64,000 nt of DNA from Rhizobium etli CFN 42 (lineage in GTDB: Bacteria; Pseudomonadota; Alphaproteobacteria; Rhizobiales; Rhizobiaceae), in the NCBI RefSeq assembly GCF_000092045.1, contig NC_007761.1:4225501-4289500 (forward strand). Reading direction: 5' to 3'. Of the stretch, positions 53,170-64,000 are shown in pieces (the first letter of the stretch is position 1; each line of letters starts with the position of its first letter). The translations under genes were made by a program, and so were the position numbers. The notes beneath the pieces are model-generated. The model was not told where the DNA came from. It did no database searches and was given only the letters and a program-made list of their open reading frames with translations.

Positions 53170-53739
53170 TCAATCCTTGGCGCGTTCGACGTAGGAATTG
53201 TCTTCCGTCGCGATGACGACGCGGGTGCCGGCGTCGATATGCGGCGGGACCGATGTGCGGATGCCGTTGGAGAGCATGGCCGGCTTGTAGGACGAGGATG
53301 CCGTCTGGCCCTTGACGACCGGTTCCGTCTCGACGATCTCGAGCGTGACGTGGCGCGGCAGTTCGAGCGCCAGCGGAACGCCTTCATGGATCGACAGGAT
53401 GCAGGTCATGCCTTCCTGGAGATAGGCCTTCTGGTCGCCCATGGTTTCGGCGCTGACGACCACCTGGTCGTAGGTCGCCGGGTTCATGAAATGGAAGCCT
53501 TCGCCGTCTTCATAGAGGTACTGGAAGTTCACGTCTTCGACGAAGGCGCGTTCGACCTGTTCGGTGGTGCGCCAGCGCTCGGAAACCTTCACGCCGTCGA
53601 CGATGCGGCGCATGTCGACCTGGGTGACAGGCGTGCCCTTGCCCGGGTGAAAATTCTGGGCGGTGAGAACAACGTAGAGCTTGCCGTCCACGTCGAGAAC
53701 GTTGCCCTTGCGGACCGAAGAGGCGATGACCTTGACCAT
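53170..53739 (-). CDS. efp: Translation elongation factor P
   Basis: A 189-aa EF-P with KOW-like N-terminal domain and two OB domains (middle [18 protein letters not shown] region, C-terminal [33 protein letters not shown]). It rescues ribosomes stalled at polyproline. The modified residue is Lys34 in FHPGKGTP; the EpmA and EpmB genes directly opposite show it is beta-lysylated. ATG at 53739 with AAGG-containing site upstream; the frame extends further 5' but without homology. Confidence 0.97.
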
Positions 53740-53887
53740 AAGACTTCCTTGTAACTCGGCTTTCGGCGTCGTAGAGGACTGTCGAGACGCCCTGAAGATG
53801 CAAATGTTTTTCTTTGGGGGCGCAACTAACCTAAAATCCGGGAAATAGCCACCCCCATACCGGCTTCTCCGGCGAAGAAAGCTTGGA

Positions 53888-54949
53888 ATGAATTTTTCGG
53901 CCAAAGCGTCCCCCTGGTGGACCCCGTCCGTGCATGCCGACCGCCGCCCGTTCCTGATCGGGCGCAATGCGATTCAGGCGGCATTGCGCGGGTTTTTCGC
54001 GCGCGAGGATTTCATCGAGGTCGATACGGCGGTGCTGCAGGTCTCGCCAGGCAACGAAGCGCATCTGCATGCCTTCGCGACGCAAGCGATAACGACAGAC
54101 GGTCAGACGGCGCCGTTCTACCTGCACACCTCGCCGGAATTCGCCTGCAAGAAGCTGCTTGCGGCGGGCGAGCAGCGCATCTCCTGTTTTGCCCATGTCT
54201 ATCGCAATCGCGAGCGCGGGCCGTTGCACCATCCCGAATTCACCATGCTCGAATGGTACCGGGCCGGTGAAAGCTACGAGAGCCTGATGATGGACTGCGT
54301 GCGGATTCTGGCGCTCGCGGCTGAAACGGTGAAGACGTCGATGTTAGCCTATCGCGGCGCGAAGAGCGATCCCTTCGCAGGACCGGAGCGGATCAGTGTC
54401 GCCGGAGCCTTCGAGCGCCACGCCGGCATCGATCTCCTTGCCTCCGTCGCCGACGACGGTTCGACCGATCGCGACCATCTGGCGGCCGAACTTAGGCGCG
54501 TCGGCATGCGTGTCGCCGATGACGATGGCTGGGCCGATCTGTTCAGCCGGGTGCTGGTCGAAAAGGTCGAGCCGCATCTCGGCTTCGGCCGCATCACCAT
54601 CCTCGACGAATACCCGGTCTCGGAGGCAGCGCTTGCGCGCCCCTCGGCGCGCGACCCCCGGGTCGCCGAGCGCTTCGAGCTCTATGCCTGCGGCGTCGAG
54701 CTTGCCAATGGTTTCGGCGAGCTCACCAATGCTGGCGAACAGCGGCGGCGCTTCGAGATCGAGATGGCCGAGAAGGCCCGGATCTACGGCGAGACTTATC
54801 CGGTCGATGAGGATTTCCTCTCGGCACTGTCGCTGATGCCCGAGGCAAGCGGCATCGCGCTCGGCTTCGACCGGCTGGTGATGCTGGCGACAGGGGCGTC
54901 GCGTATCGACCAGGTGCTCTGGGCGCCGGTTGCGGAGTACGGAAGATGA
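53888..54949 (+). CDS. epmA: EF-P--(R)-beta-lysine ligase EpmA (PoxA/GenX)
   Basis: A 353-aa homologue of the class II lysyl-tRNA synthetase catalytic core without the anticodon-binding domain. Motif 2 is [31 protein letters not shown], and motif 3 is [12 protein letters not shown]. It attaches (R)-beta-lysine to Lys34 of EF-P. ATG at 53888. Divergent from efp by 148 bp; overlaps epmB by four bases. Confidence 0.95.
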
Positions 54950-55995
54950 ATGCCGTCAAACCGATCAAGAGCGTCGACGACCTTGTCGAAGCGGGGCTTG
55001 CTACGCCTGCCGATCGTGCAGCGCTCGAGGCGGTGACCGCGCGTTACGCGATCACGCTGACGCCTGAGATCACCAGGCTGATCGATCGCGCCGATCCCAA
55101 CGACCCGATCGCCCGGCAATTCGTGCCTGACGCTGCCGAACTCGTCGTCGCGCCGGAAGAACGTGCCGATCCGATTGGCGATCACGCTCACAGCCCTGTC
55201 GAGGGCATCGTGCACCGTTATCCCGACCGGGTGCTGCTGAAGGCCGTGCATATCTGCCCGGTCTATTGCCGCTTCTGCTTCCGCCGCGAAATGGTCGGGC
55301 CGCAGGGCCTCGGCACGCTCGATGCGGCGGCGATGGAGGCAGCCTTCGATTACATCGGGAGCCATCAGGAGATCTGGGAGGTCATCCTGACCGGCGGCGA
55401 CCCGCTGGTACTTTCGCCGCGCCGGCTCCGTGAGATCATGAAGGCACTCGCTAATATCTCGCATGTGAAGATCGTGCGTTTCCACACGCGCGTTCCCGTC
55501 GTCGATCCCGAGAAAATCGACGCGGCGCTCATCGCCGCGCTGAAGGCGAGCGGTAAGACGGTCTATGTGGCGCTGCACGCCAACCATCCCCGCGAGCTGA
55601 CGATGGAAGCGCGGGCGGCCTGCGCGCGCTTGGTCGATGCCGGCATCGTCATGGTCAGTCAATCGGTGCTGCTCAAGGGTATCAACGACGATCCCGCAAT
55701 TCTTGCCGACCTAATGAAGGCATTCGTCGAAAACCGCGTCAAACCTTATTACCTCCATCATCCCGATCTCGCGCCCGGCACCGGTCATTTCAGATTGACG
55801 ATCGAGGAGGGGCAGAGGATCGTGGCGGCACTGCGCGGGCAGATTTCCGGCCTCTGTCAGCCGACTTACATCCTCGATATTCCGGGCGGTCACGGCAAGG
55901 CTGTCGTCAGCGGAAGCACCGTTCAGGCAACGGGCGACGGCTGTTATTCTGTCTCAGATTACCGCGGCGGCGAGCATTCCTATCCGCCTGCCTGA
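54946..55995 (+). CDS. epmB: EF-P lysine 2,3-aminomutase EpmB
   Basis: A 349-aa radical-SAM, PLP-dependent aminomutase producing (R)-beta-lysine for EpmA. The cluster motif is CPVYCRFCFRREMVG (CxxxCxxC), followed by EVILTGGDPLVLS and the C-terminal PYYLHHPDLAPGTGHFR with PLP-site region YILDIPGGHGKAVV. Starts in the ATGA overlap with epmA. No EpmC hydroxylase gene is adjacent. Confidence 0.95.
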   Translation: MNAVKPIKSVDDLVEAGLATPADRAALEAVTARYAITLTPEITRLIDRADPNDPIARQFVPDAAELVVAPEERADPIGDHAHSPVEGIVHRYPDRVLLKAVHICPVYCRFCFRREMVGPQGLGTLDAAAMEAAFDYIGSHQEIWEVILTGGDPLVLSPRRLREIMKALANISHVKIVRFHTRVPVVDPEKIDAALIAALKASGKTVYVALHANHPRELTMEARAACARLVDAGIVMVSQSVLLKGINDDPAILADLMKAFVENRVKPYYLHHPDLAPGTGHFRLTIEEGQRIVAALRGQISGLCQPTYILDIPGGHGKAVVSGSTVQATGDGCYSVSDYRGGEHSYPPA

Positions 55996-56260: not shown

Positions 56261-56512
56261 ATGAATAAGACAATCCGCGACCTCGTAGCCAAATTCGGCA
56301 AGCTTCCTACGTCGGTCGACCAGATCGCAGACGACGCCGATCTTTATGCGGCGGGTCTGACGTCCTTTGCCTCGGTGCAGTTGATGCTGGGCATCGAAGA
56401 GGCGTTCGACATCGAATTCCCCGACAATCTCCTGAACCGCAAATCCTTCGCGAGCATCTCGGCCATCGCCAAGACGGTCGATATCATCCAGGACGGCCGG
56501 AAGGTCGCCTGA
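56261..56512 (+). CDS. Stand-alone acyl/aminoacyl carrier protein
   Basis: An 83-aa acidic carrier protein. The phosphopantetheine Ser is Ser35 in YAAGLTSFASVQLMLGIEEAFDIEFP, where the usual DSL is TSF. Small four-helix fold predicted. It is not next to fatty acid or NRPS/PKS genes but heads an operon containing an aaRS-like ligase, matching carrier proteins known to be partners of such ligases in Bradyrhizobium and Agrobacterium. Its stop overlaps the next start (TGATG). Confidence 0.9.
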   Translation: MNKTIRDLVAKFGKLPTSVDQIADDADLYAAGLTSFASVQLMLGIEEAFDIEFPDNLLNRKSFASISAIAKTVDIIQDGRKVA

Positions 56513-57693
56513 TGAACTTCCCCGTCAAGATCCTAGAGGACGACCTTGTCGCAAGGGTCGCCCGTGTCGCCGAAGTTGCGGCGAGACATGCGGATGCCGT
56601 CGATGCCGAAGGCCGCTTTCCCCGCGAAGCGGTCGATGCGATGAAGGCCGAAAGGCTGCTCGGCATCCAGGTGCCGCGCCATCTCGGCGGCGAATCCGCC
56701 TCGATCACCGAAATCGCCGAATTGTGTTCGATGCTCGGCCAGGCCTGTGCGGCGAGCGCCATGGTCTTCGCCATGCACCACATCAAACTGTCGAGCCTCG
56801 TCGAACACGGCGCCGACAGCGATTGGCACCGTAGTTTCATGCGCAGCATCGCGGCCGACCAGCTGCTGATCGCCTCCGCCACCACCGAGGGCGGCATCGG
56901 CGGAAACCTACGCAACAGCATCTGCGCGGTCGAAGTCGATGGTGATACTTGTCGCCTTGAAAAAGATGCGACCGTCATTTCCTACGGTTCGCATGCCGAT
57001 GCGATCCTCATCACGTCGCGTGCCCACGCGCAGGCGGCTTCTTCCGATCAGGTGCTGACGGCCTTCCTCAAGGACCAGTATACGCTCGAAAAAACGCATG
57101 CCTGGAATACGCTCGGCATGCGCGGCACTTGTTCCGACGGTTTCCTCTTCAAAGGCGAAGCGCCGGCTCGGCAAATTCTGCCGAAGCCTTTCGCCGAGAT
57201 CGCGGCGCAATCCATGCTCGCTTCCTCGCATCTGCTCTGGAGCGGCGTCTGGTACGGCATCGCGGTCGACGCGGTCGCCCGCGCCCAGACCTTCGTCCGC
57301 GCCGCTGCCCGCAAGGCCCCCGATGCCCAGCCTCCGGGCGCGCTGCGTCTCGCCGAAGTTTCGAACCTGCTGCAGATGGTGAAATCCAACGTTGTCGCGG
57401 GCCTCAAGGCCTATGAACATGCCAGATCCGATCCGGATAGGCTGTCGTCGATGGGTTTTGCCGTAGCGATGAACAACGTCAAGATCGCCTCTTCCGAGAC
57501 GATTCTGGAGATCGTCAATCACGCCATGCTGATCTGCGGCATCATGGGCTACAAGAATGGTACGCCTTTCAGTCTCGGACGGCATCTGCGCGACGCCCAT
57601 TCCGCACAGCTCATGATCTCGAACGATCGCATCCTCGGCAACACGTCGAGCATGCTTCTCGTCCATAAGCAGGACACTAGTCTACTGGGGTAA
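56512..57693 (+). CDS. Acyl-CoA-dehydrogenase-like flavoprotein
   Basis: A 393-aa FAD enzyme of the acyl-CoA dehydrogenase fold (N-terminal helical domain, middle beta domain about 130-235, C-terminal helices). FAD-contact region: [16 protein letters not shown]. By eye the segment corresponding to the catalytic-base motif IYEGT of medium-chain enzymes reads [16 protein letters not shown], so the classical Glu is missing. Related enzymes in peptide pathways oxidise amino acids bound to carrier proteins, and the neighbours suggest the same here. Starts in a TGATG overlap with the carrier gene; 4 bp to the ligase gene. Confidence 0.88.
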
Positions 57694-57697
57694 AGCC

Positions 57698-58606
57698 ATG
57701 GATATGCAGACCTCGTTTCTGGACCGGCTCTTCGAGTCCGGCCTGCTGATCGATACCGGCGTTGATGGTCTCTATGGCCGCAGCGGCCAGTTCGAAGATG
57801 TCATCACCGCCTTCGAACGGTTGATCGACAGGTTCGGCGGCGCCGACGGCGCCGAGGCGATGCGTTTCCCGCCCGGCATGAACCGCGCACTCTTCGAAAA
57901 GAGCGGTTACATGAAAAGCTTCCCGCAGCTGGCCGGCACGGTGCACAGCTTCTGTGGCAGCGAGCTCGATCATATGAGCCTGCTTGAATGCATGGAGGTC
58001 GGCCAGGACTGGACCAAGGACCAGCAAGCGACCGATATCGTGCTGACGCCGGCCGCCTGCTACCCGCTTTATCCAACCGTCGCCAAGCGGGGCAACCTGC
58101 CGAAGACGGGCGGCCTCTTCGACTTGCAATCCTACTGCTTCCGCCATGAGCCGTCGAAGGATCCGGCCCGCCAGCAGCTGTTCCGTATGCGCGAATATGT
58201 CTGCATGGGAACGGAGCAGCACGTCACCGATTTCCGCCAGCGCTGGATGGACCGTGGCGTCGAAATGATGAAGCAGGTCGGCCTCGACGTGACCATCGAC
58301 GTTGCCAACGACCCGTTCTTCGGCCGCGCCGGCAAGATGATGGTCAACAATCAGCGTGACCAGAACCTGAAATTCGAGCTGCTGATCCCGATCGCCTCAG
58401 TGGCCAAACCGACCGCCTGCATGAGCTTCAATTACCATCAGGACTCCTTCGGTCTGAAGTGGGGCCTCAATCTCGAGGACGGCAGCGTTGCGCATACCGC
58501 CTGCGTCGGCTTCGGTCTGGAGCGTATCGCGCTCGCCCTCTTCCACCACCACGGGCTCGATGTGAAGGAATGGTCGGCCGGCGTACGGAAAACGCTGTGG
58601 GGCTGA
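57698..58606 (+). CDS. Amino acid:[carrier protein] ligase (seryl-tRNA synthetase-like)
   Basis: A 302-aa homologue of the catalytic domain of atypical methanogen-type seryl-tRNA synthetase, with no tRNA-binding domain. Motif 2: [26 protein letters not shown]; motif 3: [12 protein letters not shown]. The predicted zinc ligands are Cys121 (PAACYP), Glu166 (MREYV) and Cys269 (TACVG), each exactly ten lower than the numbers I recall for the B. japonicum enzyme. Characterised relatives activate glycine or alanine and load the phosphopantetheine of a neighbouring carrier protein instead of tRNA. The carrier gene lies two genes upstream. Which amino acid is used here is unknown. Confidence 0.93.
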
Positions 58607-59577
58607 TGACGGCGATGGCATCGGTCTTCCCGGGGATAAGCCCGGAAAACTACCGGCAGCACGCGCTGCATTCCGGCGAGCGTGCATGGCCGGAAACCAA
58701 CTGCTATGTCGATCTCTGGATCGAAGTGCTGGCAACATCGGGCGCCGCGCCCGAGGCGATGCTGGGTTTCACCCTGGCGCAGGACTTCGAGGGCGACCAG
58801 TTCACCTTCTTCAAGGTGCCGCTCGAAGATCTCGAAGCGCTTTATGGGATTCGCGCGACCGAGCTTGCGATCTACGACCGTGTCGAATGCCATGTTGAGG
58901 TGCAGATTGCGCGGGGTCGTCTCTGCCTGATCGAGATGGATTCCTTCTATATGCCGGATACGCGCGGCACCGCCTACCGGCAGGAGCACGGCAAGACGAC
59001 GGTTGCGATCAACCGGCTGGACGTTACGGCAAAGCGCGTCGAATATTTTCACAATGCCGGCTATTTCCAGCTTGAAGGCGAGGATTTCGACGGACTGTTC
59101 CAGCTGCAGCTGACGGAAAGCGATCCGCCGTTCCTGCCCTATACGGAATTTGCACGATTTCCGGAAAAGCCGGCTGATGAAGCGCATCTGCGCGCGACCG
59201 CGCGGCGGCTTGCCGCTTTTCATTTCACTAGGCGTCCGCGGGAAAATCCGATCCGCGCCTTCGCGGCGGTCTTTCCGCAGCAGGTCGAAGCGGTGGCGGA
59301 TCGGCCGTTCGGCTTCTTCCACAAATACGCTTTCAACACGCTTCGCCAGGTCGGCGCCAATTTCGAGCTGGCGGCCGATCATCTGGCATGGCTTTCACCG
59401 GATGAATTCGCAGCCGCCGCCGAGCATGCCAGGCGCATTTCGGACGTAGCGAAATCCGTGCAGTTCCAGCTTGCCCGCGCCGTTGCTCGCAGGAAGTTCG
59501 AGCCGCTGCAGGCAGCCCTTGATCCGGCCGCCGATGCATGGGATTCCATGATGGCATCACTTGCGGAGCGAATCTGA
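58606..59577 (+). CDS. DUF1839 protein, candidate aminoacyl transferase
   Basis: A 323-aa soluble protein beginning [22 protein letters not shown]. Conserved-looking segments: WPETNCYVDLWIEVL (with a Cys), MDSFYMPDTRGTAYRQEHGKTTVAIN and GYFQLEGEDFDGLF. No signal peptide or membrane helix. I recognise it as the DUF1839 family, which tends to occur with the carrier protein/ligase pair. It starts in a TGATG overlap with the ligase gene. Role unknown; moving the aminoacyl group from carrier to an acceptor is an inference. A conserved Cys and Asp/His would suit acyl-transfer chemistry. Confidence 0.82.
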   Translation: MTAMASVFPGISPENYRQHALHSGERAWPETNCYVDLWIEVLATSGAAPEAMLGFTLAQDFEGDQFTFFKVPLEDLEALYGIRATELAIYDRVECHVEVQIARGRLCLIEMDSFYMPDTRGTAYRQEHGKTTVAINRLDVTAKRVEYFHNAGYFQLEGEDFDGLFQLQLTESDPPFLPYTEFARFPEKPADEAHLRATARRLAAFHFTRRPRENPIRAFAAVFPQQVEAVADRPFGFFHKYAFNTLRQVGANFELAADHLAWLSPDEFAAAAEHARRISDVAKSVQFQLARAVARRKFEPLQAALDPAADAWDSMMASLAERI

Positions 59578-59593
59578 GGCCGGAGATCAGAGA

Positions 59594-62074
59594 ATGCGGG
59601 GGCGTTTGGCAAGCATCGGCGGCAGGGAAAGCGTGCTTTCCGAAGGCTGGAATCTGATCCTGACGGAGCCGGGCGCCTGCGCCGTACCGCACGATATTCC
59701 TCTCTCCGCGCAATTCATTCCTGCACCCGTTCCCGGCACCGTTGCGGCAGCGCTTGAAAAAGCCGGGCTCTTCGACCGGGAAAATCCCGAGCCGCTAAAT
59801 ATGAAGGACGCGTGGTATCTGTGCCGGCTTTTTGATGCCGAGCCAGGCGAAGCCATCCTGCGTTTCGGCGGGCTTGCCACGATTTGCAATGTCTTCCTCA
59901 ACGGTCAGGAAATCCTCTTTTGCGAGAGCATGTTCACGGCGCATGAGCTCCCGGTGACGCTTTCGGGCGGCGACGAGCTGGCGCTCTGCTTCCGGGCACT
60001 CGGCCCCCGGTTGTCAGAGCCCGGTCCGCGGGCGCGCTGGCGGCCGCAGATGATCACGCCGGCGGGTCTGAAGAATTTCCGCACGACGCTGCTCGGCCAT
60101 ATGCCGGGCTGGTGCCCCGATATCCATGCGGTCGGGCCGTGGCGGCCAATTTCATTGGTGCGACGCGATCCCGTATCGATCGACAATGTCTCCATCCGCG
60201 CGGTCCTGGAGGAGAGCGGCGCCGGCCGGCTGAGCGTCTCCCTGCGTAACAATGCCGAAGATCCAGCAATGCTGCTGCGCTGCGGCGGCATGGAACAGCC
60301 CTTCGAGAAAATCGGCGAGAATCATTACTCGGCTATCCTCAAGCTGTCCGATATCGACCCCTGGTGGCCGCATACGCACGGCACTCCGCGTCTCTATGAT
60401 GTGACGCTGGTTTTCGACGGCGAGGAATATTCGCTCGGCAGCACCGGCTTCCGGCGCATTGACGTCGACCGCAGTGCGGATGGCGAAGACTTCGCGCTCC
60501 TTATCAACGGCGAGCGTGTGTTCTGCCGCGGCGCGGTCTGGACGTCCGCCGATATTGCGCGGCTGCCCGGCGGGCGGGCGGATTATGAGCCCTTCTTGCG
60601 GCTTGCCTGTCAAGCCGGCATGAACATGATCCGCATCGCCGGCACCATGGCTTACGAGACGCCCGATTTCTTTGCGCTCTGCGACGAGCTCGGCCTGCTC
60701 GTCTGGCAGGATTTCATGTTTGCCAATTTCGACTATCCGCGTAACGACAAGGCTTTTCTCGGCCACGTTCATGCCGAGGTCGAGGAGTTCCTGTACGGCG
60801 TCCAGGCGTCGCCTTCCCTTGCCGTTCTCTGCGGCGGCAGCGAGATCCATCAGCAGGCGGCAATGCTCGGCCTGCCCATGGAATTCTGGAGTGGACCGGT
60901 GACCGACGAAATCATCCCGGCCATCGCCGGCCGCATGCGTCCCGACGTGCCCTATGTGCCGAATTCGCCATACGGCGGAGCGATGCCCTTTTCGCCCAAT
61001 TCAGGCGTTGCGCATTATTACGGCGTCGGCGCCTATATGCGGCCGATTGCCGATGCCCGCCGCGCCGATGTGCGCTTTGCCTCCGAAAGCCTCGCCTTTG
61101 CGCATGTGCCGCAGCAAAGGACGCTGCAGCGCCATCTCGATGTGCCCGCCGTCCACAGCCCACTGTGGAAGGCGCGGGTGCCCCGCGATCGCAGCGCATC
61201 CTGGGATTTCGAGGATGTTCGCGACTTTTATTTGAAGCTTCTCTACGATTTCGACCCGGCCCGGCTGCGCCGCGAAGATCCGGAACGCTATCTCGATCTT
61301 TCCCGTGCCGTTACCGGCGAGGTGATCGAAGAGACCTTCGCCGAATGGCGGCGCAAGGGCTCCGGCTGCAACGGGGCGCTCGTCTGGACGCTGCAGGATC
61401 TGCTGCCCGGCCCCGGCTGGGGGGTAATCGATTCCACCGGCGAGCCGAAACCTGTCTGGTATGCGACGCGCCGTGCCTTCCGGCCGGTTCAGGTGGTCTT
61501 CACTGACGAGGGAACCAACGGTCTCGACGTGCATGTCGTCAACGAGACGGACACCGACCTCGACCTGGAACTCGAGGTCGTCTGCCTACGTGATGGAAAA
61601 CAGCAGGTGGTCAGCGGCAACATGGCTTTCAAGCTGGCCGCAAGAAGCGTGGAGCGCTTTGCCTCCACCGCGCTGTTCGGCGCCTTCTTCGATACGACCT
61701 ATGCCTTCCGCTTCGGCCCGCCGGCGCATGATGCAAGTGTGGCGCGCCTGCGCTCCCTCGCCGATGGCGCCGTTCTCGCGGAAAGCTTCCATTTCCCCTG
61801 CGGGCGCGGAAAAGCACTACACGACGCCAATATCGAGGCGTCGCTCGGCAGAGACGGCGACAGCTGGGTTATCGATCTCAGGACCGACCGGCTGGCGCAA
61901 TCTGTGCATATCGACGTCGAAGGCTACAGGGCCGAGGACGACTGGTTCCACCTTGCTCCCGGTCCGGTGCGGCGCGTGAAGCTCTTCGCGCTGTCCGACA
62001 CCGAGAGCGATGTTCCCCCGACGGGCGAAATCAGAAGTCTAGGCAGTTCGCGCCGCATCGGGGTCACGGGCTGA
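59594..62074 (+). CDS. Cytosolic glycoside hydrolase family 2-like protein (beta-mannosidase-like)
   Basis: A 826-aa protein with GH2 architecture: N-terminal jelly-roll sugar-binding domain, Ig-like domain, TIM barrel (about 310-560) and C-terminal beta domains. Barrel motifs: AGMNMIRIAGTMAYE, LGLLVWQDFMFANFDYPR. The acid/base position is LCGGSEIHQQ (Glu417), where beta-mannosidases usually have GNNE or GNSE-type Asn before Glu; the nucleophile candidate is Glu498 in ASESLAF, 81 residues on, a normal GH2 spacing. There is no signal peptide. ATG at 59594, 17 bp after DUF1839. The changed motif and cytosolic location suggest a biosynthetic or sensing role on an intracellular glycan or lipid-linked sugar. 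Confidence 0.85.
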   Translation: MRGRLASIGGRESVLSEGWNLILTEPGACAVPHDIPLSAQFIPAPVPGTVAAALEKAGLFDRENPEPLNMKDAWYLCRLFDAEPGEAILRFGGLATICNVFLNGQEILFCESMFTAHELPVTLSGGDELALCFRALGPRLSEPGPRARWRPQMITPAGLKNFRTTLLGHMPGWCPDIHAVGPWRPISLVRRDPVSIDNVSIRAVLEESGAGRLSVSLRNNAEDPAMLLRCGGMEQPFEKIGENHYSAILKLSDIDPWWPHTHGTPRLYDVTLVFDGEEYSLGSTGFRRIDVDRSADGEDFALLINGERVFCRGAVWTSADIARLPGGRADYEPFLRLACQAGMNMIRIAGTMAYETPDFFALCDELGLLVWQDFMFANFDYPRNDKAFLGHVHAEVEEFLYGVQASPSLAVLCGGSEIHQQAAMLGLPMEFWSGPVTDEIIPAIAGRMRPDVPYVPNSPYGGAMPFSPNSGVAHYYGVGAYMRPIADARRADVRFASESLAFAHVPQQRTLQRHLDVPAVHSPLWKARVPRDRSASWDFEDVRDFYLKLLYDFDPARLRREDPERYLDLSRAVTGEVIEETFAEWRRKGSGCNGALVWTLQDLLPGPGWGVIDSTGEPKPVWYATRRAFRPVQVVFTDEGTNGLDVHVVNETDTDLDLELEVVCLRDGKQQVVSGNMAFKLAARSVERFASTALFGAFFDTTYAFRFGPPAHDASVARLRSLADGAVLAESFHFPCGRGKALHDANIEASLGRDGDSWVIDLRTDRLAQSVHIDVEGYRAEDDWFHLAPGPVRRVKLFALSDTESDVPPTGEIRSLGSSRRIGVTG

Positions 62075-62115
62075 GGCTCGCAGAGAACAATGCAAACTCA
62101 TCGGAAGTTCGTAAT

Positions 62116-63294
62116 TTGAGAACGGTATATCGCTACCTACGTGCCCATGTCCTGCAGCGGCTGATCCCGCGGTCGCGTCTCGCCTTCAATCCGCGCAAGC
62201 CGGTCGAAATCGTCGGTTATCTCTCAATGCCCGTTGGTGTCGGTGAATCGGCAAGGCTTTGTGCGGGGGCGCTTTCCCAAGCGGGACGGGCGGTTTCGCT
62301 CTCAGACGTCAGCACGCACCCGGATGAAAAATCCTTCGTCGGCTGGGTGTCGTCGCATCTTTCGGCCGAACCGCCGGGAAGCCGTATCTGGCATCTCAAT
62401 CCGCCGATGCTGCCGCGCGCCATCCTGAAGATGGGTGTCGGCAATTTCATCCGCGCCTTCAACATCGGCTATTTCGCCTGGGAGCTTGCAGTCGTGCCGA
62501 CAGAGTGGCGCAATGGGTTGCGTTACATGAATGCCGTCTTCGTGCCATCGGAATTCACGAGGCGGGCGATCGCACCGCTGACGGCGGCGCCCGTGATCGT
62601 GGTACCGCATCCCGTCACCGAGAAGCCGGCGAGCGAAGGCATGCGGGAGAAATTTGGCATCGACCAGGATGCCTTTCTCGTCAGCTTCATCTTCAGCGCC
62701 GGCTCTTCGATCAACCGGAAGAACCCGCAGGCCGTGATCGAGGCCTTCAGACTGTTCAGCGCCGAATGCCCGAGCGCCTTTCTGTTGATGAAGGCGAGCG
62801 GCGACCTCGACAAGGATCAGGGCTTGCGCGAACTGATTGCTTCGGTCGCCGGCAATAGCCGTGTGAGGATCATCACCGACAAGCTCTCGAACGCCGAGAT
62901 CAACGGCCTCATCCGCTCTTCCAATGCCTATCTTTCGCTGCATCGCTCTGAAGGTTTCGGCCTGACGGTTGCCGAGGCGATCATGCAGTGTACGCCTGTC
63001 GTTTCCACAGCCTGGTCGGGCACGGAAGATTTCTGCGATCCCGACAATACCTGGCTGGTCGACGCTCCCCTCATTCCCGTCGTCGACACCCATCCCGAAT
63101 TTGCCGGGCTCGAAAGCGCGGTCTGGGCGGATCCCCCTCCTGAAATCGCGGCCGCGCATCTCGGCGATATCTTCCGTGCGCCCGAGCATGCACGAGAGAA
63201 GGCCGCGAAGGCGCGGGAATTCCTGCGCCGCTACCTCGCAGAGAACAGTTACGAGAAGGCGCTCCAGAAGCTGGCGGCGATGCAGGCCAGCTAA
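62116..63294 (+). CDS. GT4-family glycosyltransferase
   Basis: A 392-aa GT-B enzyme. N-terminal acceptor side opens VEIVGYLSMPVGVGESARLCAGAL; the C-terminal donor domain has FIFSAGSSINRKNPQAVIEAF and the EX7E motif SEGFGLTVAEAIMQ. No membrane helix is obvious, but the basic N-terminus could bind membrane. The start is TTG at 62116 with CGGAAG upstream. 41 bp after the GH2-like gene and before a flippase, as in surface polysaccharide clusters. Donor and acceptor sugars unknown. Confidence 0.9.
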   Translation: MRTVYRYLRAHVLQRLIPRSRLAFNPRKPVEIVGYLSMPVGVGESARLCAGALSQAGRAVSLSDVSTHPDEKSFVGWVSSHLSAEPPGSRIWHLNPPMLPRAILKMGVGNFIRAFNIGYFAWELAVVPTEWRNGLRYMNAVFVPSEFTRRAIAPLTAAPVIVVPHPVTEKPASEGMREKFGIDQDAFLVSFIFSAGSSINRKNPQAVIEAFRLFSAECPSAFLLMKASGDLDKDQGLRELIASVAGNSRVRIITDKLSNAEINGLIRSSNAYLSLHRSEGFGLTVAEAIMQCTPVVSTAWSGTEDFCDPDNTWLVDAPLIPVVDTHPEFAGLESAVWADPPPEIAAAHLGDIFRAPEHAREKAAKAREFLRRYLAENSYEKALQKLAAMQAS

Positions 63295-63382
63295 GGTGAG
63301 GTCACCGCTCCGCTTTATTTTAACATTTCCGCATTAGTGATGACGGGTATCCGGCCTTAGGCTGATCCCCGCGGATGGACAG

Positions 63383-64000
63383 ATGTCGAAGGGTATTATC
63401 GCAAATTCGGTGATGAATGCGGCGGCAGGCATGCTGCTGTTGCTGACGGGCTTCGTCTCCTCGATCATCACCGCGCGCCTGCTTGGGCCGGAAGCCAACG
63501 GCATCGTCGCCTTCTCGCTGTGGCTGGTGATGACGGGCGCCTCGATCGCCGAGCTCGGCTCCAGCATCACGCTGCTGAAGACCCTGCCGCAGCTTGCAGC
63601 GGAGGGCTATGACGCGCGCCGCCGGCAAGGCTTTGCCGCCATCCTCGTCGGCTTCATGATGTTTTCGACCGTCGCGCTGTTGGCGCTCTACGCCCTGTTT
63701 TTCCTGACTTCCGAGGAGATGCACTGGGCGGAGACCGCGCCTTCCGTCGCGCTTGTCACCGGCGCGCTGTTCTTCATCCAGGCGATCGGATCTTTCGTCA
63801 AATTCTACCTGATCGGCGAAAAGAAGCTGGGCACCTTCTTCAAGCTGACCGTCGCCGTCTCCATCATACAGCTTGCCGGCGTCGCCGCCGGCGCCGTGCT
63901 TTATGGCGTCGAGGGCGTTCTCGTCGGTTATGCGCTCGGACAGCTCGTGCTGTTTTTCGCCACACTGCCGATCCTTCTTGCACGGCGCGACTGGTGCGGG
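63383..64000 (+). CDS. Polysaccharide flippase (Wzx/MOP superfamily), 3'-truncated by window edge
   Basis: ATG at 63383 opens a frame that runs off the window (206 codons seen). Product begins MSKGIIANSVMNAAAGMLLL and has at least five hydrophobic helices: LLLTGFVSSIITARLLGPEANG (typical first-helix pair of Wzx proteins), FMMFSTVALLALYALFFL, SVALVTGALFFIQAIGSF and two more. MOP-type flippases carry lipid-linked oligosaccharides across the inner membrane. It follows the GT4 gene by 88 bp in the same direction, linking the carrier-protein operon to export of a glycan. Confidence 0.88.
   Translation, partial: MSKGIIANSVMNAAAGMLLLLTGFVSSIITARLLGPEANGIVAFSLWLVMTGASIAELGSSITLLKTLPQLAAEGYDARRRQGFAAILVGFMMFSTVALLALYALFFLTSEEMHWAETAPSVALVTGALFFIQAIGSFVKFYLIGEKKLGTFFKLTVAVSIIQLAGVAAGAVLYGVEGVLVGYALGQLVLFFATLPILLARRDWCG

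Follow-up and report, generated by a model that had tools for sequence, protein, structure and literature searches.

An aminoacyl-carrier-protein operon of Rhizobium etli CFN 42 as a possible analogue of lincosamide synthetase in exopolysaccharide formation

Introduction

What becomes of the amino acid that an aminoacyl-tRNA synthetase (aaRS)-like ligase loads onto a carrier protein? The question is raised by an operon at the end of a 64,000-nucleotide stretch of Rhizobium etli CFN 42 (the window; C2:4225501-4289500 of the 6.5 Mb genome), which encodes a carrier protein, an acyl-CoA dehydrogenase (ACAD)-fold flavoprotein, an aaRS-like amino acid:[carrier protein] ligase, a DUF1839 protein, a glycoside hydrolase family 2 (GH2) protein, a family 4 glycosyltransferase (GT4) and a Wzx-type flippase. 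Relatives of the ligase load an amino acid onto a carrier, and according to the part of PMC9437257 considered here it is unknown what the amino acid does once bound to the carrier. We hold it somewhat more probable than the opposite that the operon is a non-ribosomal peptide synthetase (NRPS)-free, aaRS-powered analogue of lincosamide synthetase, acting on an exopolysaccharide precursor.

A preliminary description of the window regarded the operon as undescribed, a view we rejected on the strength of PMC2922099 (Iyer and co-workers, Biol Direct 2010). In the passages of that paper considered here, a note added in proof places a StRS paralogue alongside genes for a carrier and a redox enzyme, for a conserved protein of uncharacterised function and for a glycosidase, together with liposaccharide genes, and proposes that a cell-surface sugar receives an amino acid on its amino group. 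This Atu2573-type neighbourhood shares its gene kinds and its outcome with the present operon, Atu2574 being equated here with DUF1839. Because the note covers both gene set and outcome, we have rediscovered a prediction that was already in print. The same passages are without the tandem hydrolase described below or its fusion to the flippase, without a ligase protein fold and without a test of co-occurrence. In the part of PMC11941606 considered, Atu2573 appears only among the hub genes of a network built from expression data, and among the papers listed by a literature search on Atu2572-Atu2576 (Atu2571 was outside its terms) there was no study of the operon's product. What is new here is CcbD as a concrete enzymatic analogue and a constant sixth partner; the core prediction had already been published.

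Results

Distribution was assessed within the Pseudomonadota, using an order sample of 297 genomes and a phylum sample of 398. DUF1839 was present in 49 and 16 of these, respectively, with 10 genomes common to both sets of hits and 55 in all. The surroundings were examined in 45 of the 49 order genomes (all except G296, G249, G279 and G246) and in six extra phylum genomes, and the comparison set outside the window's genome consisted of 51 stretches (L046-L096) from 50 genomes. A scan of named genomes supplied its best 80 loci, all from Rhizobiales by title and the closest from Rhizobium; one of them, L102, duplicates L046. The five core genes, for carrier, flavoprotein, ligase, DUF1839 and GH2, occurred together in all 50 genomes and were strictly collinear in 48 of the 51 stretches and 78 of the 80 named loci, an order well removed from what chance would give. 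Three stretches were not collinear: in L063 a space of 2.6 kb precedes GH2, L090 holds an additional DUF1839 copy from the genome that has its core in L091, and L092 was scored on a second DUF1839 copy although its core is complete. Both incomplete named loci were short, L110 being without carrier and flavoprotein and L123 without carrier.

Conservation of all seven genes together, as the preliminary description envisaged it, was not borne out. Relatives of this GT4 were found no more than ~9 kb away from the core in only 23 of the 80 named loci and 2 of the 51 stretches, those of this flippase in only 40 and 4, and the seven-gene conserved unit was rejected. The GT4 is lineage-specific and stands outside the conserved core. 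The same description named the wide occurrence of the first four genes without the last three as an argument against itself; the argument applies by half, since GT4 and flippase are separable but GH2 stays and the first five genes are kept together.

The ligase was found in 49 of 49 DUF1839 genomes at 432 bits or more. A ligase match without DUF1839 occurred in 21 further genomes, 15 of them at 281-317 bits and six with weaker matches only, and the surroundings were examined in 11 and four of these, respectively. In the 11 loci (L206-L216) the flavoprotein gene was always directly before the ligase gene, a carrier gene in the other direction was present in 10, and the neighbourhood of the ligase gave no relative of DUF1839 or GH2; at the four weaker loci nothing but the ligase matched. 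Since the L206 ligase matches Bll0957 (3mey, 713 bits), we refer to this set as the Bll0957 type.

The flippase gene crosses the window end and continues for ~2.7 kb, and in the protein of the complete open reading frame (ORF) two alpha/beta hydrolase domains follow the flippase at the C-terminal end. At E <= 1e-30 the tandem hydrolase was detected in 49 of the 297 genomes in a search that scored at most the four best candidates per genome, with misses elsewhere possible, and these 49 are identical to the DUF1839 set (Fisher p ~3e-57, ignoring shared descent). They belong to nine families and 21 genera, and two of the families (f1 and f42) include genomes with and without DUF1839. The hydrolase gene was within 10 kb of DUF1839 in 32 and within 20 kb in 37 of the 49 genomes, distant on the same contig in three and on another contig in nine. 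The full-length hydrolase (E <= 1e-130) was present in 17 genomes of the phylum sample, namely all 16 with DUF1839 and G582, and four more gave weak part-length matches. In G582 the hydrolase gene (L231:7014-10806) follows a gene for an AMP-binding adenylating enzyme, with a Wzc-type gene in the same stretch; perhaps the same acyl logic operates there with another activating enzyme.

Flippase and hydrolase formed one ORF in 37 loci, the window's included, and were separate neighbouring genes in eight. Among 88 aligned rows, which contain the window's protein twice and the single locus L046/L102 under both names, the second hydrolase domain had Cys at the nucleophile elbow in all 88, and the first had Gly in 72, Arg in 14 and Ser in two. 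Asp518 and His551 are invariant and may form a Cys-Asp-His set with this Cys. To judge from sequence, the tandem hydrolase is related to the exosortase-A-associated hydrolases TIGR03100 (72.0 bits, cut-off 168.45) and TIGR03101 (71.8 bits, cut-off 202.75) but belongs to neither; both types, 1 and 2, recur here joined in tandem in one protein. A PHROGs search gave a weak match to an esterase/lipase family. According to the part of PMC3584217 considered, a TIGR03100-type hydrolase, Bcam1334, lies beside glycosyltransferase and flippase genes in the Bcam1330-1341 exopolysaccharide cluster of Burkholderia cenocepacia. Unlike the exosortase-associated enzymes, the window's hydrolase is tied to DUF1839 and, in Rhizobium, fused to Wzx.

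DUF1839 is predicted to be a CcbD-type aminoacyl transferase or amide synthase. Fold comparison gave a papain-like domain followed by a helical one, the two-domain arrangement of CcbD/LmbD-type amide synthases; CcbD was the best solved match by Z, and AziU3 and CtaG were best by Foldseek E-value. The match includes the C-terminal part, which in CcbD holds the sugar- and carrier-binding residues. The link to CcbD rests on folds; in sequence searches there was no credible match in the PDB, and a Pfam scan of DUF1839 members returned BtrH_N in one of 27 (E 0.15), with unrelated families scoring better. The PHROGs search had no match for DUF1839. At least 97 % of the 131 aligned rows keep Cys33 (34 in alignment numbering), which would be the catalytic residue. 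His128 and His149 are invariant. In the literature searched only PMC10318531 mentions the family, and the part of it considered here assigns DUF1839 to the papain-like superfamily, with the processing of glycans at a cell wall as its suggested function.

Some peculiarities of the family were seen in passing. Two genomes of family f109 (G521 and G588; L091, L090, L092) carry two DUF1839 genes each. In G521 the in-operon copy reads ANR for TNC and the copy with the Cys adjoins the tandem hydrolase, so that the roles may be split. In G210 the gene is split over two frames (G210:C1:2515620-2516545). Among the 120 homologues listed out of 3468, some bear the public names 'serine--tRNA ligase' or 'succinylarginine dihydrolase', in all likelihood through misannotation.

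The carrier is probably the orthologue of Agrobacterium Atu2571, its best PDB matches being 2jq4 'Atu2571' and 4h2w_C, from the complex of Atu2571 with a ligase (E about 2.5e-37); the phosphopantetheine Ser35 is present in 127 of 128 aligned carriers. Against DltC models it matched weakly (29 vs 68 bits). The ligase scored 519.9 bits against NF005479, 'amino acid--[acyl-carrier-protein] ligase' (cut-off 357), and 24 bits against Pfam tRNA-synt_2b, below the 29.3 cut-off. Its residues 112-298 align with the C-terminal core of seryl-tRNA synthetase alone, i.e. the class II core only, and a dedicated carrier gene stands in its operon, as in other amino acid:[carrier protein] ligases. The system of the Bll0957/Atu2573 ligases with carrier Atu2571 thus shares both its ligase family and its carrier with the operon. 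Bll0957 itself, ~50 % identical to the window's ligase, belongs to the type without DUF1839 or GH2 nearby. The Agrobacterium tumefaciens locus L139 has all five core genes, as here, and its ligase and DUF1839 are 83 and 72 % identical to those of the window. The Agrobacterium orthologue of the ligase likewise loads an amino acid onto its carrier.

Pfam and PDB matches give the flavoprotein an ACAD fold. Where we take short- and medium-chain ACADs (SCAD/MCAD) to have their catalytic Glu, a position placed by hand from HMMER alignments, Ile369 occurs in 129 of 129 aligned homologues. Some true ACADs have the catalytic base elsewhere. The motif replacing the glutamate (MIxN) is invariant also in eight aligned Bll0957-type flavoproteins. 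The fold search did not separate dehydrogenases from monooxygenases, and the RedW model gave 41 vs 650 bits. Because the usual base is absent, imine formation or oxygenation is preferred over alpha,beta-dehydrogenation. The Bll0957-type loci keep the flavoprotein without DUF1839 or GH2, and we therefore pair it with the ligase and not with the glycan half of the operon. For the same reason a nitrososynthase acting on a sugar amine, for which KijD3 and DnmZ among the PDB matches could speak, is disfavoured.

GH2 has the two catalytic glutamates of beta-mannosidases (Glu418 and Glu499 if translation is taken to start at 59591, giving 827 aa), both present in 129 of 130 aligned sequences and matched by eye to beta-mannosidase alignments, and no obvious signal peptide was seen by eye. 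The full-length flippase reached 44.7 bits against PF13440 (cut-off 23), which assigns it to the Wzx/MOP type.

Polysaccharide genes recur around both the core and the hydrolase. Among 114 genes flanking 16 core loci, picked from 182 called, the commonest included GT4-type (11), ABC transporter (5), GNVR (4) and GT2 (4) genes, with Bac_transf, Wzy_C and Polysacc_synt at three each; two MFS genes also occurred. Eleven hydrolase loci, nine of them unlinked to the core and the others L242 (~13 kb from the core) and that of G582 (L231), gave 108 neighbouring genes, with GT4-type 11, WecG 9, GH5 9, Polysacc_synt_3 6, GNVR 6, GINT1_N 5 and Acyl_transf_3 2. Genes for GT4, GH5, a Wzz/GNVR protein, hydrolase, Wzx and GT2 surround the core in L093 and L145. 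The window's genome has a second polysaccharide sub-locus (L254:8334-13473; C2:240.8-246.0 kb), where the protein that best corresponds to a 397-aa protein flanking the core in L093 and one of three relatives of the L093 Wzz/GNVR protein lie together at C2:241.9-245.9 kb, next to what look by eye like GH5 and acyltransferase genes.

The seven same-strand ORFs, with their positions and spacing, were confirmed as first described (Table 1). The carrier and ACAD genes and the ligase and DUF1839 genes overlap by TGATG, 4 bp separate the ACAD and ligase genes, and the gaps after DUF1839 are 16 bp to GH2, 41 bp to GT4 and 88 bp to the flippase. The family assignments agreed with Pfam and NCBIfam; the ligase and the in-window part of the flippase (against Polysacc_synt) were below the Pfam cut-off and were resolved by NCBIfam and by the full-length scan, respectively. 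The seven genes contain no NRPS modules, and DUF1839 and the ligase have one match each genome-wide. A promoter and terminator dividing the operon would have told against its unity; no terminator-like site was found between the first genes and the GT4/flippase half, and such sites were at chance level overall (12 vs 9.5, sd 3.4), as were promoter-like sites. No Rfam family reached its gathering score in L002, and there are no tRNA genes in the window.

Table 1 Genes of the operon and the gene following it
Feature	Position	Strand	Basis
Stand-alone aminoacyl carrier protein, 83 aa; phosphopantetheine Ser35	56261..56512	+	PF00550 over cut-off
ACAD-fold flavoprotein, 393 aa	56512..57693	+	Pfam Acyl-CoA_dh_N and _1 over cut-off; PDB matches
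aaRS-like amino acid:[carrier protein] ligase, 302 aa	57698..58606	+	NF005479; PDB 3mey/4h2w Bll0957
DUF1839 protein, 323 aa; Cys33; papain-like + helical domain	58606..59577	+	Pfam DUF1839 over cut-off
GH2 beta-mannosidase-like protein, 826 aa (ATG 59594)	59594..62074	+	2/3 GH2/mannosidase Pfam domains over cut-off; PDB 5n6u, 2vjx
GT4 glycosyltransferase	62116..63294	+	PF00534; GT1-type domains over cut-off
Wzx/MOP-type flippase, 5' part	63383..64000	+	Full ORF L002:8384-11695, 1103 aa
GT4 gene after the flippase ORF	L002:11718-12896	opposite	

Directly upstream of the operon, at 53173-55995, are an elongation factor P (EF-P) gene and genes for a class II aaRS paralogue and a radical SAM protein, which we take to be of the EpmA/EpmB type. 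A second, unrelated aaRS-paralogue modification system thus adjoins the ligase operon, and such a pair precedes the core in L157 too.

Discussion

Like the lincosamide synthetases (LmbC/LmbN-CP/LmbD and CcbC/CcbZ-CP/CcbD), the operon combines an amino-acid activating enzyme, a carrier protein and a papain-like condensing enzyme. Activation in lincosamide synthetase is by an NRPS adenylation domain, whereas here it would be by the aaRS-like ligase; the flavoprotein, GH2 and hydrolase are additional, and the context is that of a polysaccharide and not of an antibiotic. In the sequence of events we propose, the ligase would adenylate a small amino acid and pass it to the phosphopantetheine arm of the carrier, where the flavoprotein would oxidise it, probably by imine formation or oxygenation. 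DUF1839, by its fold and co-occurrence, would then take the aminoacyl group onto its Cys and transfer it to an amino sugar that forms part of an exopolysaccharide precursor linked to a nucleotide or a lipid; the acceptor would be the amine of this sugar or, with lower probability, a hydroxyl. GH2 may trim or edit the glycan acceptor. The tandem hydrolase could be an editing thioesterase or a second transferase working on the acylated precursor, and in Rhizobium, where it is fused to the Wzx flippase, it may be tethered to the exporter. The earlier suggestion that the carrier-bound amino acid ends on a flipped glycan gains from the GH2 gene in the core, the DUF1839 fold and the link between hydrolase and flippase, but loses in that GT4 and flippase are not constant.

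Several observations weigh against this proposal. DUF1839 and CcbD are only 12-13 % identical, and the part of PMC10318531 considered models the DUF1839 site as Cys-(Thr/Ser)-His, as opposed to the Cys-His-Glu triad that CcbD has. In L091 the DUF1839 inside the operon is without the Cys, which the second copy in that genome has. The ACAD-fold precedents acting on carrier-bound amino acids (ColB1, RedW) are named dehydrogenases, which does not favour imine formation or oxygenation. In the window's genome the genes for polysaccharide do not lie together: of 13 polysaccharide queries only the hydrolase, as part of the flippase ORF, and the downstream GT4 had their best match in L002. No amino-sugar biosynthesis gene was seen fixed near the core, which bears on the amine acceptor, ABC-transporter genes are also frequent there, and G582 has the hydrolase without DUF1839.

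Some of these points feed other explanations. The module could make a diffusible amino-sugar/amino-acid amide (a signal, siderophore-like or antibiotic-like compound), with flippase and glycosyltransferases as incidental neighbours. CcbD comes from an antibiotic pathway, as do CtaG and AziU3, GT4 and flippase lie outside the constant core, and ABC-transporter and MFS genes are among its neighbours; we nevertheless consider such a product unlikely, as GH2 is constant and the hydrolase, where not in the flippase ORF, is in polysaccharide loci. Marginally less probable again is an aminoacyl ester to a hydroxyl, analogous to D-alanylation of teichoic acid, or transfer to a lipid head group or to a protein. 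The nucleophiles used by papain-like transferases are diverse, and the weak DltC match, the Acyl_transf_3 proteins near the hydrolase and the want of a fixed amino-sugar gene would fit; CcbD, however, forms an amide, and the domains listed near core and hydrolase include no Dlt-type membrane transferase, for which no search was specifically aimed.

That DUF1839 is a thioesterase or peptidase releasing an oxidised amino acid, e.g. glyoxylyl or pyruvoyl, so that the module supplies a metabolite and not a glycan substituent, seems improbable. Its papain-like fold would allow this, and the Bll0957-type loci keep flavoprotein, ligase and mostly carrier in the absence of DUF1839, so the first half of the operon can serve other ends. 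DUF1839, however, co-occurs exactly with the GH2 neighbourhood and the hydrolase, and its fold match spans the sugar- and carrier-binding part of CcbD. The least credible explanation, to which we give very little weight, is chance adjacency in Rhizobium of a five-gene aminoacyl module and an unrelated flippase/GT pair: most genomes allow the two sets to be told apart, but in Rhizobium the flippase ORF includes the very hydrolase that accompanies DUF1839 in 49 of 49 genomes.

On the lincosamide-synthetase analogy, a wider picture may tentatively be drawn, though we think it rather less than an even chance that all of it holds: a widespread alphaproteobacterial exopolysaccharide would carry an oxidised, amide-linked amino acid delivered by a tRNA-free relay of aaRS-like ligase, carrier, flavoprotein and CcbD-like DUF1839, and the tandem Cys-hydrolase would couple acylation to flipping, a coupling so tight that Rhizobium has it within the flippase. 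The question is directly testable, with a fold-based mechanism, a defined set of six proteins and a model organism in Agrobacterium (Atu2571 and neighbours). If true, it would at last be clear what becomes of the aminoacyl-carriers that aaRS homologues produce, plant-associated bacteria would possess an NRPS-free route for placing amino acids on their surface polysaccharides, and acyl transfer or editing would be physically linked to flipping.

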